Below are positions 31,714 to 45,384 of a stretch of DNA of 64,000 bases, in pieces. Under the pieces are notes generated by a model. It searched no databases. It was given only the letters and a program-made list of their open reading frames with translations, and had not been told where the DNA came from. This DNA comes from an uncultured Bacteroidales bacterium (GTDB lineage: Bacteria; Bacteroidota; Bacteroidia; Bacteroidales; F082): NCBI GenBank assembly GCA_947303395.1, contig CAMYYD010000010.1, forward strand, positions 1 through 64,000, written 5' to 3'. The position numbers were made by a program, and so were the translations under genes. How positions within the stretch are numbered: position 1 is the first letter of the stretch; the number at the start of each line of letters is the position of its first letter.

Positions 31714-31746
31714 AAAAAAACAGCGACTTCAGTCGCTGTTTTTTTT
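31714..31746. terminator. Bidirectional terminator closing the island
   Basis: CAGCGAC and GTCGCTG form a GC-rich stem around a TTCA tetraloop, flanked by A7 on the left and T8 on the right, so it works in both directions. It lies between the converging stops of the two-TM gene and the transketolase C-terminal gene. Confidence 0.92.
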
Positions 31747-39414: not shown

Positions 39415-42400
39415 ATGAAAAAGCTATTTTTTACAACATTGTTTTTGGCATTTGTCATTTCGAATTTACTAGCCCAGACATTCACTGCGGGCGACCTGAA
39501 TTATTCAGTTAACGATGACGGTGTTACTGTAACAGTTATCAATTCAGCCGGATATATGTTGGGTGATTTGATTATTCCAGATACGGTAACCGACAACGGC
39601 AACACATATGCGGTTACAGCAATTGGAGATTATGCATTTTCGTTTTCAGCCTATGAAATGCTAATACTTCCAAACACTCTTATTTCCATTGGTAATGAAG
39701 CCTTTTATTGCGGTGTGTTTAATTGTACGTTGAGAATTCCTAATTCGGTTGAGAATATTGGGTATAATGCATTTTTTAATTGCAGGAATCTGACAGGTCA
39801 TTTGACAATTCCAAACTCTGTAACAAATATTGGCTTTTGTGCTTTTATGAATTGTGGATTCACCGGATTAACACTTCCCGAGTCGCTTAGTTCAATTAGT
39901 TCCAGTGCCTTTGCCGAGTGCAATCAGATGTCGGGGACATTGATACTGCCAAGTTCAATAACAAACATTGAAGAATACGCTTTTACCGGTTGTAGTTTTA
40001 CAAGCATAGTCTCATACGCAATAACACCTCCTGAATTAGGCGAGGATGCGTTTACTGATTTCAGCTGTTCAACTTTGACAGTTCCGAGCGGATGTTTGCA
40101 AGAATATCAAAACTCTGATTGGGCTCAATATTTCGATACATTTATTCCATGTTGGGACGGCACTGTTGCTGAATCATACGCAGGAGGCACCGGTTCGGCA
40201 TCCGATCCATTCCAGATTGCTACAGCAGAGCAGCTTGCACTTCTTGCCCAGCAGACAAATTCGGGTCTTGTCGGAATATATCATTATGTTTTGACAAACG
40301 ATATATGTTTGAGCGGTTCTAATATGTTACAATGGATTCCGATAGGAAAAAATAATAACACATCTCTAAAGCATTTCATCGGTGTTTTCGACGGCAACGG
40401 TCACACTATTTCAGACATGTATGTTACAGAACGCCCAGATAGCTATTGTGTCGGTCTGTTTGGCTATACAGCTTCCGCTACTATAAAAAACCTTAATGTC
40501 CAAAATTCAACAATAAATTATCATGCTGTTGTGCCAAATACTGTTGATTGTGCCGGCTTAATCGCGGGAATGGCGGAGAATTCACATTTCATAAACTGCA
40601 CAGTTGATGGAAGTATTGCTTATGAAGGTGATACCGGTTATAGTTTGGGCGGTTTAGTAGGTAATCTCCCGATTTCCAACTCTAGTACAAGCACAATACG
40701 TGTCTCCGACTGTATAAATTATGCTACAATTCATGCTAACTGCCCTGGTGTTATCATCGGTGGTGGAACAAACGGCGGAATTATTGGACATACGTTCGTA
40801 TCACTCGGTAATATCACTGAATTGAATATAGAAAATTGTTATAATTACGGTGATATTATCGCTGGCGGCAGATTGGGTGGCATTGTTGGAAGGTTTACTA
40901 TATCTAACAACAATAAAGGTAATGTAAGAAACTGTGAAAATTATGGAACAATAACGGCTACCAACGGTTATTCTGGAGGAATTGCGGCAGAAGCGGAAGG
41001 TGTTTATTTAGAAAACTGCGTTAATAATTTCGCAGGTAGTATTTATGGACAGTGTGTTGGAGGAATATTAAGCACCACAAATCGCTATGCAACGGTAATA
41101 TCCAAATGTGTGAATCACGCGGCGATATTCGGCGATTTTTCAGCAGGCGGTATTGTGGGTATTGGATGCCGTGTTTCTAACTGTTACAATACAGGTGATA
41201 TTTCATTCATTTCGAATGGTAACGGGATATCTAATTCAAGCATAGGCGGCATTGCAGGTGAAATCGCAAAATCGGTATGCCGAAATGTTTATAATACAGG
41301 TGATGTTGCCTCATCAAGAGGCACGACACGTGCCGGCATTGTTATTGGTTCACTCGGTGCCGACGCCCAATGCCGTAATCTGTATTGGCTTGGTGATTAC
41401 GACATTCCTGCATGTGGAAGCGACTCTTTGATGCCTGAAGGCTCTTGCGCTTTCCATCAATGGACGACTCCGACGACTTGGGTTCTCGATGAGCCACAAT
41501 ACGGCACCACCGACTTTATTGAGGCATTAAACCGCGGCTCAAATTACGAATGCCTATGGCTTGAAGATGAAGATGTCATCAACCATAGACTTCCAATTTT
41601 TATAGATTACCCGCAAAATTATCCACTAATCGGCGCTGAATGGTATTACGAGATTACCAACGACAACGGCAGCGTGACTTATCAGTATCTTGAATGCGCG
41701 GCAGATACTACAATCGGCACTACTAGACCGAAAGTGATTGTTAAGAGCAACACCTTGTACGACAAAGATTTACACACAAAAGTCACTCACGAATATGTTT
41801 ATTCTGAAGACGGAATCGTTTATTGGTGGGACAAGCAGTCGCAAAACTATACGACGCTTTATAATTTCAATGCCAATGTCGGCGACCAATGGACAATTCA
41901 CGTCGGAACTCAAAACATTACGATGCATGTCGACGAGGTGAATAACGTTGAGTATAATGGCCAAACCTATCGTGTTTTGACTGTCAGCGACACCAACGAC
42001 ATCTTCAGTGGCGACATCATCTGCGGCATTGGTCATACGACAAGTTTCTTCCCTGAGAAACTGCTCAACAACCGCGATTTCGACGTTGATGGAATTCGTT
42101 GCTACTGGCATTTCGGCGAGGAACTGCTGCAATTCGGTGAAGTCGATTGCGACGAGATATACAATATTTATAATGATGTGGCTGAAAATGAGGAAACGGG
42201 ATTTGAGGTTTATCCGAATCCGACAAATGATTACCTAATCATTAATTCCGGCAACGTAAAGACGCGATTCATCGCGTCTCCATTCACCATCACAAATATT
42301 TGTGGCCAAATCCTCATGCAAGGCGTGATTTCGTCTGATAATCAACAGATTGACGTGGAAGGATTGGAAAATGGAATCTATTTCATCACAATTAATAATA

Positions 42401-42426
42401 TCACGATGAAATTTGTGAAAAAATAA
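39415..42426 (+). CDS. Giant T9SS surface protein with BspA-like LRR and GLUG domains
   Basis: A 1003-residue secreted protein. Signal peptide ends near LLAQ (residue 21). Residues about 25-250 hold BspA-type leucine-rich repeats (SIGNEAFYCG, NIGYNAFFNC, NIGFCAFMNCG). About 260-700 hold GLUG-type repeats introduced by SDPFQIATAEQLALLAQQ, with many GGIVG/GGIAG units. A conserved 230-residue C-terminal region precedes a T9SS type A sorting domain (FEVYPNPTND, GIYFITINN, FVKK). Such proteins bind host or polymer surfaces. The C-terminal region and GLUG part are shared with the next gene. A 20-bp palindrome lies in frame within the sorting domain. Confidence 0.88.
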   Translation: MKKLFFTTLFLAFVISNLLAQTFTAGDLNYSVNDDGVTVTVINSAGYMLGDLIIPDTVTDNGNTYAVTAIGDYAFSFSAYEMLILPNTLISIGNEAFYCGVFNCTLRIPNSVENIGYNAFFNCRNLTGHLTIPNSVTNIGFCAFMNCGFTGLTLPESLSSISSSAFAECNQMSGTLILPSSITNIEEYAFTGCSFTSIVSYAITPPELGEDAFTDFSCSTLTVPSGCLQEYQNSDWAQYFDTFIPCWDGTVAESYAGGTGSASDPFQIATAEQLALLAQQTNSGLVGIYHYVLTNDICLSGSNMLQWIPIGKNNNTSLKHFIGVFDGNGHTISDMYVTERPDSYCVGLFGYTASATIKNLNVQNSTINYHAVVPNTVDCAGLIAGMAENSHFINCTVDGSIAYEGDTGYSLGGLVGNLPISNSSTSTIRVSDCINYATIHANCPGVIIGGGTNGGIIGHTFVSLGNITELNIENCYNYGDIIAGGRLGGIVGRFTISNNNKGNVRNCENYGTITATNGYSGGIAAEAEGVYLENCVNNFAGSIYGQCVGGILSTTNRYATVISKCVNHAAIFGDFSAGGIVGIGCRVSNCYNTGDISFISNGNGISNSSIGGIAGEIAKSVCRNVYNTGDVASSRGTTRAGIVIGSLGADAQCRNLYWLGDYDIPACGSDSLMPEGSCAFHQWTTPTTWVLDEPQYGTTDFIEALNRGSNYECLWLEDEDVINHRLPIFIDYPQNYPLIGAEWYYEITNDNGSVTYQYLECAADTTIGTTRPKVIVKSNTLYDKDLHTKVTHEYVYSEDGIVYWWDKQSQNYTTLYNFNANVGDQWTIHVGTQNITMHVDEVNNVEYNGQTYRVLTVSDTNDIFSGDIICGIGHTTSFFPEKLLNNRDFDVDGIRCYWHFGEELLQFGEVDCDEIYNIYNDVAENEETGFEVYPNPTNDYLIINSGNVKTRFIASPFTITNICGQILMQGVISSDNQQIDVEGLENGIYFITINNITMKFVKK
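42260..42279. repeat. In-frame palindrome in the T9SS sorting domain of the LRR protein
   Basis: AGACGCGAT-TC-ATCGCGTCT is a perfect 9-bp inverted repeat with a 2-base centre, inside the coding sequence. It encodes the KTRFIAS segment, which lengthens the sorting domain relative to the Omp28-like paralogs of this window. Confidence 0.85.
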
Positions 42427-42447
42427 AAACGAATAAAAACAAATATC

Positions 42448-45384
42448 ATGAAAAGACTATTATTAGTTTTGTCTTTCTGCTTTGTGATTGTTGGTGTTAA
42501 GGCACAAAACATTTGGAAACCAATCAGTTATAGCGGCACTTTTTTAGGAGCGGGGCCAGATGGCAGTATTTACACTACAAACTATATTGGCGACCATAAC
42601 ATCATGATTTCAAAGGATGATGGCGAGACATGGCAAGTGTCATTCCCTGGCGAAGGATGTTATTTTAATCCATTTTGTTTCACGGTAAGTAAAGAAGGAC
42701 GAGTGTTTGTTGTTGACAATCAATCGGATAGAGTTTTTTATACTAGCAACAACGGTCTTACTTGGCAGTATACTGAACCAATTCCCATTGAAAGCTGGGA
42801 TAATGCTTATATGTTGTATGCCGCCACTAACAACATTATTGTTGGAAGGACCAATGAACAAGATGTTTTCTATACAATCGACGGAGGTGTAACATGGCAA
42901 ATTCATCATCCTGATATTTTTGATCCGGATTATGCTATTTATGATATTATCGTCAATGAAAACGGCGATGTTTATGCCAGCATTTACAATCCTTTCAGGA
43001 CTAATATGGGTATTTATCATTCATCAGTTTACAATATAAATAACTGGGAGCTTATTGAATTTGACGGTTTGGGCATAAGGGATATAGCGTTCGACCCTGA
43101 AGGCAATGTGGTTTGCGGCGTGGTATCGGGTTCGTTTCCAGGATTTGTACATAAACCTGGATTCTATGCATTTTCATCAAACAACAGCATCGCCATTTCT
43201 GATAACGGCATTACATACACATGGAAAGAATTGCCAACTAAAGCAGTTTTAACATATTCATTAGACCATGGTGGCAGTTTTACTGAGATTGGCGAAGAGT
43301 TGCCTCTTTCAATGTTCACTTTTGAAGGGTCAATATATAAAGGGTTTGATAATCATTTGTATTTCCTTGGAAATGGTCTAAAAAAATCGGTAAGCAACGC
43401 CGATGATCTGATAAACCAAACGGATTCGTGTTGGAATGGCGGCGTTGCCTATTCGTTTGACGGCGGTGAAGGCACGTATGAAAACCCATATAGGATAGCT
43501 TCGGCGGAACAGCTCGCTTTACTCGGCGAATGGTGTGATCATGGCTGTTACGTTTTGACAAAAGACATCTGTCTGAATGGCTCAAATGGATTGATTTGGG
43601 ATCCGATAGGTAAAGTCATTGACGAATATAATTGGAGTAGTTTTTCGGGTGTTTTCGATGGCAACGGTCATAAAATATATGATATGCGTGTTGATGAGAC
43701 TTGCGGCTCAAAGACTGTCGGTTTGTTCGGCAACACTTATCGGGCGACCATTAAAAATGTGATTATTGAGAGCTCGTCTGTTGAAAATGATGCGGATAAC
43801 AGTTACAGCAAAGCAAGTGCCGCTTTGCTCGTCGGTCAAGCAGAACAGACAAATATCATCAGCTGCACGGTTAATGGTGTGGTGCATGGCACGTGCAACG
43901 ATAATCTTGAAGGAGGTTTCGTGGGCGGCATCGTCGGTTTCAGTGAGAAAAGTCATATAATTGACTGTTTCAATTATGCCTCAGTTAATGGTAATGTAGT
44001 CGGCGGAATCGTTGGGAAGTCGACACTGGACACCATATCTGTCTGCGGTAATTATGGCGATATTACCGGAATTATCACTGACAATGCGACAACATTTGCC
44101 GGCGGTATCTCAGGACAAGGTGATTATATCGCTGATTGTTTTAACCATGGTAATATTACCACCGTTTATGATGGCGATTCCATACATTCGTTGTTTTTTC
44201 TCGGCGGCATAGCTGGTTATGTATCGACAGAAGGTCATATCAATAACGTTTACAACATTGGTGACATTGAAGAGCCCGCTTCATCGGACTATGATTTAGG
44301 CATCATAGCGGGACATGCTTTGTCGGACGATTTCACCGATTGCTATTGGCATGGCGAATACAACATCCCTGTTTGTGGTAACCTTACCGTACAAAATTCA
44401 TGCGCTTTTAATTATGATGAAACGTCAGGCCGATGGATTCTCGACGAGTCACATCATGGCACCACCGATTTTCTCGACGCCTTGAACATCAGCTCATCAA
44501 GCAACTGTTACTGGTATTTAGATGGCAATGGCTATCCCAGACCGGGCTATTTCGGACTGAACTATTCGCTTATCGGAACAGAATGGTATTATGAGATAAC
44601 AAACGGAAACGGAGCTATAACCTATCAGCATTTGGAATGCGCCGCCGACACTGCCATCAACAGCAAGCGCGCCAAAGTGATTGTAAAAAGCAACACATTG
44701 TACGACAAAGATTTACGCTCAAAAATCACTCATGAATACATCGATTATGACGATGGTGTCGTTTATTGGTGGGACAAGCAATCAGAGAGTTATACAACCC
44801 TCTACAATTTCGATGCTCAAATTGGTGACGAATGGAGTATACATGTAGGTAATGAGAGTATCACTATGCATGTTGATAATGTGTATTACAATGATTATGA
44901 AGGTAAAACCTATCGTGTTATGACTGTCAGCGATGCGAACGACATCTTTAGCGGCGATATCATCTGCGGCATTGGGCACACCATGAGTTTCTTCCCTGAG
45001 AGACTGCTCAACAATCGCGATATCGACGTGGATGGTATCCGCTGCTATTGGAGTTTTGGCGAGCAGATGATACAATTCGGTGACACCGACTGTGATGAAA
45101 TTTATAACATCATTCATTTTGATGTTGAGGAAATTCAATCCGAGACGATTTCGGTTTATCCGAATCCGACAAATGGCGTAATCACAATTAAAATTGGCGA
45201 TAATGAGACGTTTCAGGAAACGTCTCTACAGGCGATGGAATACACCATCACAAATATTTGTGGCCAAATCGTCACACAAGGCATGATTTCGTCTGATAAT
45301 CAACAGATTAACATAGAAAACTTGCCGGATGGAATGTATTTTGTAAATATCAATAATCAAATTGTAAAGATTATTAAAAATTGA
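42448..45384 (+). CDS. Giant T9SS surface protein with Asp-box repeats and GLUG domains
   Basis: A 978-residue secreted protein, signal peptide ending near VKAQ (residue 20). The N-terminal 300 residues contain Asp-box (BNR) repeats typical of sialidase or sortilin-like propellers: SKDDGETWQ, TSNNGLTWQ, TIDGGVTWQ and others. From about residue 335 it resembles the previous gene: NPYRIASAEQLALLGE, GLUG repeats, the 230-residue conserved region (EWYYEITNGNG) and a T9SS sorting domain (SVYPNPTNG). It starts 22 bases after the previous gene. The two are tandem paralogs with exchanged N-terminal modules. Catalytic residues of sialidases are not apparent. Confidence 0.88.
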   Translation: MKRLLLVLSFCFVIVGVKAQNIWKPISYSGTFLGAGPDGSIYTTNYIGDHNIMISKDDGETWQVSFPGEGCYFNPFCFTVSKEGRVFVVDNQSDRVFYTSNNGLTWQYTEPIPIESWDNAYMLYAATNNIIVGRTNEQDVFYTIDGGVTWQIHHPDIFDPDYAIYDIIVNENGDVYASIYNPFRTNMGIYHSSVYNINNWELIEFDGLGIRDIAFDPEGNVVCGVVSGSFPGFVHKPGFYAFSSNNSIAISDNGITYTWKELPTKAVLTYSLDHGGSFTEIGEELPLSMFTFEGSIYKGFDNHLYFLGNGLKKSVSNADDLINQTDSCWNGGVAYSFDGGEGTYENPYRIASAEQLALLGEWCDHGCYVLTKDICLNGSNGLIWDPIGKVIDEYNWSSFSGVFDGNGHKIYDMRVDETCGSKTVGLFGNTYRATIKNVIIESSSVENDADNSYSKASAALLVGQAEQTNIISCTVNGVVHGTCNDNLEGGFVGGIVGFSEKSHIIDCFNYASVNGNVVGGIVGKSTLDTISVCGNYGDITGIITDNATTFAGGISGQGDYIADCFNHGNITTVYDGDSIHSLFFLGGIAGYVSTEGHINNVYNIGDIEEPASSDYDLGIIAGHALSDDFTDCYWHGEYNIPVCGNLTVQNSCAFNYDETSGRWILDESHHGTTDFLDALNISSSSNCYWYLDGNGYPRPGYFGLNYSLIGTEWYYEITNGNGAITYQHLECAADTAINSKRAKVIVKSNTLYDKDLRSKITHEYIDYDDGVVYWWDKQSESYTTLYNFDAQIGDEWSIHVGNESITMHVDNVYYNDYEGKTYRVMTVSDANDIFSGDIICGIGHTMSFFPERLLNNRDIDVDGIRCYWSFGEQMIQFGDTDCDEIYNIIHFDVEEIQSETISVYPNPTNGVITIKIGDNETFQETSLQAMEYTITNICGQIVTQGMISSDNQQINIENLPDGMYFVNINNQIVKIIKN
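45205..45226. repeat. In-frame palindrome in the T9SS sorting domain of the Asp-box protein
   Basis: GAGACGTTTC-AG-GAAACGTCTC is a perfect 10-bp inverted repeat inside the coding sequence. It lies at the position equivalent to the palindrome at 42260-42279 of the paralog, and shares the outer AGACG/CGTCT bases but has a different core. Confidence 0.85.

Follow-up and report, generated by a model that had tools for sequence, protein, structure and literature searches.

Why should two tandem genes for T9SS-exported proteins each carry a palindrome, in frame, at the same place in their sorting domains? The genes are neighbouring paralogs in the window (the whole 64,000-nt stretch of DNA analysed here), and the TIGR04183/PF18962 sorting domain of each contains one palindrome: AGACGCGAT-TC-ATCGCGTCT (42260-42279, arms of 9 bp) in the first, and GAGACGTTTC-AG-GAAACGTCTC (45205-45226, arms of 10 bp) in the second, which ranks second by length among the perfect palindromes of the window. 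Sequence and domain matches confirm the initial annotation on this point, and also in its placing the two at equivalent positions: each starts with the 12th codon after YPNP, directly ahead of the (Y/F)TITNICGQ strand. It was likewise right that the other sorting domains of the window lack the extra residues; two were found, YPNPSNGLITFDVEGNNVLTVYNTAGQ and FPNPASNQINIEGNDICEVLIYNALGQ. In the rest of the sorting-domain paralog family, the occupied site is about 5 codons nearer YPNP than in this pair. The pattern AGACG-N6-16-CGTCT occurs three times in the window, vs. 0.29 expected from shuffles. A perfect 15-bp inverted repeat of terminator-like appearance, AAAAAAACAGCGACT-TC-AGTCGCTGTTTTTTT, is also found in the window (31714-31745).

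Table 1. Paralogous genes, sorting domains and palindromic elements, in window coordinates.
Feature	Position	Strand	Basis
ORF of 1003 aa, T9SS-exported leucine-rich-repeat-like protein, first tandem paralog	39415..42426	+	TIGR04183 at aa 932-1003
T9SS type A sorting domain, first paralog	42208..42423	+	domain match
Palindromic element GTAAAGACG-CGATTCATCG-CGTCTCCAT, both outer ends decayed; in-frame V-K-T-R-F-I-A-S-P	42256..42283	+	
ORF of 978 aa, T9SS-exported, second tandem paralog	42448..45384	+	ORF and domain match
T9SS type A sorting domain, second paralog	45154..45381	+	domain match
Palindromic element AATGAGACG-TTTCAGGAAA-CGTCTCTAC, left end decayed; in-frame N-E-T-F-Q-E-T-S-L-Q	45202..45229	+	

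A dispersed family with common ends

Both palindromes are degenerate members of a dispersed family of 28-29 bp elements with the structure GTAGAGACG-core-CGTCTCTAC, in which the core is 10-11 nt long. In the genome of the gut bacterium from which the window comes (G000, 2.4 Mb) the pattern GAGACG-N4-20-CGTCTC is found at 45 places and its reversed control at none, so that the size and copy number are those of a REP (a palindrome of 20-40 bp in many copies). The arms, GTAGAGACG and CGTCTCTAC, are 9 bp each, and in exact-pattern copies the GTAG at one end pairs with CTAC at the opposite end. In the window, decay has reached both copies on one outer side or on both (GTAAAG...CTCCAT and AATGAG...CTCTAC); they are family members with the cores CGATTCATCG and TTTCAGGAAA, and the second core is found again at G000:C16:44454 (L052) and in the related genome G087.

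Between the common arms, the cores define subfamilies (CACGGCCGTG, CGCCATGGCA, CAAAATTTTG, CCACATTGTGA, and others). In an 800-kb sample of G087, CACGGCCGTG is the core of 21 of 40 copies. Single copies predominate in both genomes, with few neighbouring pairs. The flanks have no strong target motif, only a weak preference (A at +1 in 57%). Within the genus, 73 of the 75 genomes sampled carry the element, vs. 3 of 74 from other genera of the same taxonomic family; phylum-wide, 37 of 248 Bacteroidota genomes have these arms, around many other cores. Among the 67 phylum-wide copies listed, there are 49 distinct cores; 62 of the copies have a core of 10-11 nt and 55 one that is self-paired at ≥80%. 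Named records with relatives of the AnmK gene (see below) are Bacteroidales, mostly from herbivore guts, and include Candidatus Limimorpha. At three loci (L199, L205, and L216) the arms differ (GTACGGCTG...CAGCCCTAC) but the core, CCACAnTGTGA, is the one seen in the GTAGAGACG type of 29 bp, which would fit arms and cores that behave as separate modules.

This dispersal upholds the suggestion in the initial annotation that the palindromes are small and mobile. They do recur across the genome, and the inserted residues were not found to be conserved apart from the inverted symmetry.

Copies inside genes

Copies were counted as coding when they lay in ORFs of at least 150 codons. By this definition 23 of 48 copies in G000, where stretches were selected around elements, are coding (in 21 ORFs, most with recognisable domains), as are 28 of 40 in the G087 sample, which consists of contiguous pieces totalling 800 kb. 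The tagged G000 genes include those for AnmK, RibD, PrmC, an amidohydrolase, a helicase, GreA (with two copies), and an LD-carboxypeptidase, as well as TPR proteins, glycosidases, a subtilase, and several T9SS proteins. Since most of them encode proteins other than T9SS ones, the special link to T9SS that had been proposed is not borne out, and the sorting-domain setting of the window palindromes is incidental.

The peptide usually encoded is V-E/K-T-x4-S-L-Q, with the VET frame preferred by 20:3 in G000 (p = 0.0005). In G000, copies with an 11-nt core, which would shift the frame, are never coding (0/11), vs. 23 of 37 with a 10-nt core (Fisher p = 0.0003). In-frame placement in many unrelated ORFs that stay open is characteristic of Rickettsia palindromic elements (RPEs). 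The core is 10 nt long in all 23 coding copies of G000, and there is no sign of length variation being used, which leaves unsupported the idea that the palindromes serve to vary linker length in exported proteins.

In AnmK, the predicted structure (mean pLDDT 91.6) has the insert in a loop that joins a helix to a strand; for the sorting domain, a prediction made with two sequences had a mean pLDDT of 40 and was left out of the evidence. In AnmK, the helicase, and the T9SS domain, orthologs without the element lack 15 nt rather than 28-30. The element would therefore either displace 13-15 nt or be followed by loss of as many, although no pair of strains was similar enough to establish an exact insertion footprint. 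In PrmC (L164-L192) and RibD (L134-L156) orthologs from other species, the loop that carries the palindrome in G000 holds other short in-frame repeats, including tandem repeats of the GTTGGGACAAGGCATGCCTTGTCCCAAC, CGTCATTTCGACCGAAGCGGAGCGAAGTGGAGAAATCTC, and GTCAACAGTC types.

Core differences at shared sites and their possible origin

Eleven sites are occupied in both G000 and G087. The core is the same at six (L028, L029, L033, L048, L040, and L024:6638, the last with a small deletion) and different at five, with arms and junctions kept; L019 is complex in this comparison. The changed sites are both intergenic (L035, L036:9065, and L023:3317) and coding (L020, the amidohydrolase, and L043:16752), and their G087 cores belong to cores that are dispersed in G087. 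At L035, where G000 has CCACATTGTGA and G087 has CACGGCCGTG, the junctions are identical on both sides and the difference is the core alone; at L043:16752, two different cores lie inside one shared decayed right end, CGTCTCAA.

Across species, the AnmK, amidohydrolase, helicase, and sorting-domain sites have from 2 to 18 distinct cores each: at least five among AnmK orthologs, three core types at one nucleotide position among amidohydrolase orthologs, and two in the helicase, with empty orthologs also present. Supported sister pairs with unlike cores are OWN/L344 and L090/L093. Together with the G000/G087 sites, these differences bear out the earlier proposal that the core had changed while frame and position were kept.

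The sorting-domain paralogs carry the element in 49 of 96 domain matches, in one frame throughout, with 18 cores at one site. On a tree of 81 sorting-domain rows, constructed with the loop left out, the 49 occupied rows require at least 33 core changes. The core is shared by 46% of row pairs from the same genome vs. 11% of those between genomes (0/5000 permutations), and nearest relatives in other genomes mostly have a different one: cores track the genome in which they lie, not the gene tree. Other sequences are also seen in this region. In the G087 ortholog of the window paralogs (L195) the palindrome site reads ACAGAC-AG-CGTCTGT, resembling arms that remain after loss of a core; between close orthologs (L223_m4485 vs. 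L231_p2080, and L224_m2968 vs. L235_m1667) unrelated short repeats of the CATTCATCATTC type stand in for the palindrome; and a second repeat, GGCCCTTCGACAGGCTCAGGGACC, encodes an in-frame GPSTGSGT in the linker just before YPNP in many T9SS paralogs (L204-L241).

The genomes are mostly draft metagenome assemblies, and an assembly artefact was therefore considered as a source of these differences. It was set aside: arms of 9 nt should be too short for assembly to have swapped cores between loci, and the switches recur in many independent genomes.

The explanation that seems to us probable is a mobile palindrome of REP- or RPE-like kind that loops can accommodate in frame, with other copies from the same genome overwriting the resident ones. 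Copies would settle between genes, and in frame within genes, in loops able to bear some 5 to 10 extra residues, while frame-breaking copies would be cleared by purifying selection. The arms of a resident would then pair with those of a donor copy, and the core of the donor, or all 28 bp of it, would substitute for that of the resident, leaving the junction unchanged. With repeated overwriting from within the same genome, the core at a site would drift toward whichever subfamily is active there. We infer that such in-place replacement might proceed by template switching, short-tract conversion, or single-strand hairpin exchange. It is favoured by the finding of identical junctions at unlinked sites although the flanks have no strong target motif, which makes repeated independent hits on one base unlikely.

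A serious rival, if on balance an unlikely one, is recurrent insertion and excision, in which subfamilies would enter the same permissive or preferred positions independently and later be lost, each core difference being a separate event. Differences in presence or absence between species are the evidence for mobility in hand, and they flicker in just this way: occupied and empty orthologs are interleaved on both the AnmK and the amidohydrolase trees, with seven presence/absence changes on each. Insertion and loss must then be frequent, and a share of the core differences may have arisen by independent insertion. The left junctions of AnmK also differ between clades (by 6 nt, L090 vs. L093), and loops restrict the places where an insertion is tolerated. 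Such restriction does not apply to L035, which is intergenic and free of frame constraint, yet is one of several unlinked sites with exact junctions in common; the flank preference is weak, and the decayed end common to two cores at L043:16752 is hard to reconcile with separate insertions.

As a further possibility, ordinary recombination might be the only process at work, with conversion among the tandem T9SS paralogs, and exchange of alleles across species, moving segments that carry a passive element. In several T9SS paralogs the core does move together with 75-100 bp of downstream sequence shared within the genome, so ordinary paralog gene conversion accounts for part of the switching, and homogenisation of cores within a genome is what it would produce. 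As the whole explanation it is improbable: at single-copy genes and intergenic sites the differences are confined to the element, and allelic exchange cannot originate different cores at one site.

Far less likely still is slow change of the core by in-situ mutation, with symmetry restored by hairpin-templated (quasipalindrome) correction, a type of template-switch mutation established in E. coli (PMC7202029): it may restore symmetry after single changes, and intermediate or compensated forms do exist (arms AGACA/TGTCT at L347, a mixed core CGGCG|CGCAA at L241), but whole-core changes are beyond its reach, since the cores exchanged disagree at most positions, in some cases also in length (11 vs. 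10), and have their matches among the dispersed copies of that genome.

If resident copies are indeed overwritten in place, what might carry this out? The RAYT-type transposase that the initial annotation proposed to look for was not supported: the 21 RAYT/IS200 genes checked (20 Y1_Tnp genes of the genus and the single one of G000) have no GTAGAGACG copy within 600 bp. The only IS200/RAYT-like gene of G000 (L017:5489-6225) is bracketed by two repeats, each of about 100 bp, with hairpins of their own (GTAGCGTATC...GATACGC). No Y1_Tnp was detected in 25 of the 75 genus genomes, many of which still have the element, in up to 28 copies, and across the genus element count is weakly correlated with Y1_Tnp (rho 0.36, p = 0.002). 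It seems conceivable, and we put it forward tentatively, that the family spreads mainly by the overwriting of residents at fixed sites, including those in housekeeping proteins, by a hairpin-exchange activity that recognises the arms, rather than by a RAYT encoded alongside.

Relation to known palindromic repeats

These observations bear on how REP-like palindromes spread, and on why the core varies among families whose ends agree. In 75 or more species of the genus, presence and core can be compared at many fixed sites, coding and non-coding, so that replacement and insertion should be separable by dense sampling. A literature search with the arm sequence found no paper on it, and the literature searches as a whole gave, within their limits, no report of repeated core replacement at orthologous sites. 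A 1988 paper by Higgins, McLaren and Newbury is said, going by its title, to propose that REPs evolve by gene conversion; here, orthologous sites in different species, coding ones among them, display the expected pattern directly.

A close likeness is to the GTAG-tagged REPs, which have RAYT (TnpA-REP) transposases (Di Nocera, 2013, PMC3733652; determinants of TnpA-REP in PMC8266576). These too are palindromes of 20-40 bp in high copy number that start with GTAG, have several core or loop variants per genome, and are in some cases intragenic. In REPs, however, the GTAG is unpaired at one end of a stem-loop, whereas here GTAG and CTAC are paired and the full 28 bp is a palindrome; REPs are predominantly extragenic, unlike the copies of the G087 sample, most of which lie in ORFs; and REPs flank their cognate RAYT, which the GTAGAGACG copies do not. 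The Bacteroidetes repeats in the same survey have CGTC, not GTAG (PMC3733652). It does contain one precedent for differing elements at a shared site: the recB genes of two Xanthomonas species have different REPs at about the same coding position (PMC3733652). REPINs likewise form populations of short palindromic elements within a genome, but a REPIN is an inverted doublet of REPs (PMC3116915), while the palindromes described here are mostly single. Palindromic repeats are also dispersed in organelles of Volvox (PMC2670323) and occur in coding regions of Nematomorpha mitochondria (PMC6649704); these are organellar, and the comparison covered dispersal or coding location.

With respect to coding copies, the nearest counterparts are the RPEs, which, as described in PMC3733652 (the description on which this comparison is based), are in-frame palindromes in unrelated ORFs whose proteins are likely functional. 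The present element differs in its length of about 10 codons, in having exchangeable cores of 10-11 bp between constant arms, and in the repeated core differences at orthologous sites. Some 10 codons of mobile sequence that come and go in the loops of conserved enzymes amount to direct variation of protein loops outside Rickettsia, and the same-site core differences among neighbouring species make it unusually easy to follow how small repeats spread and overwrite one another.
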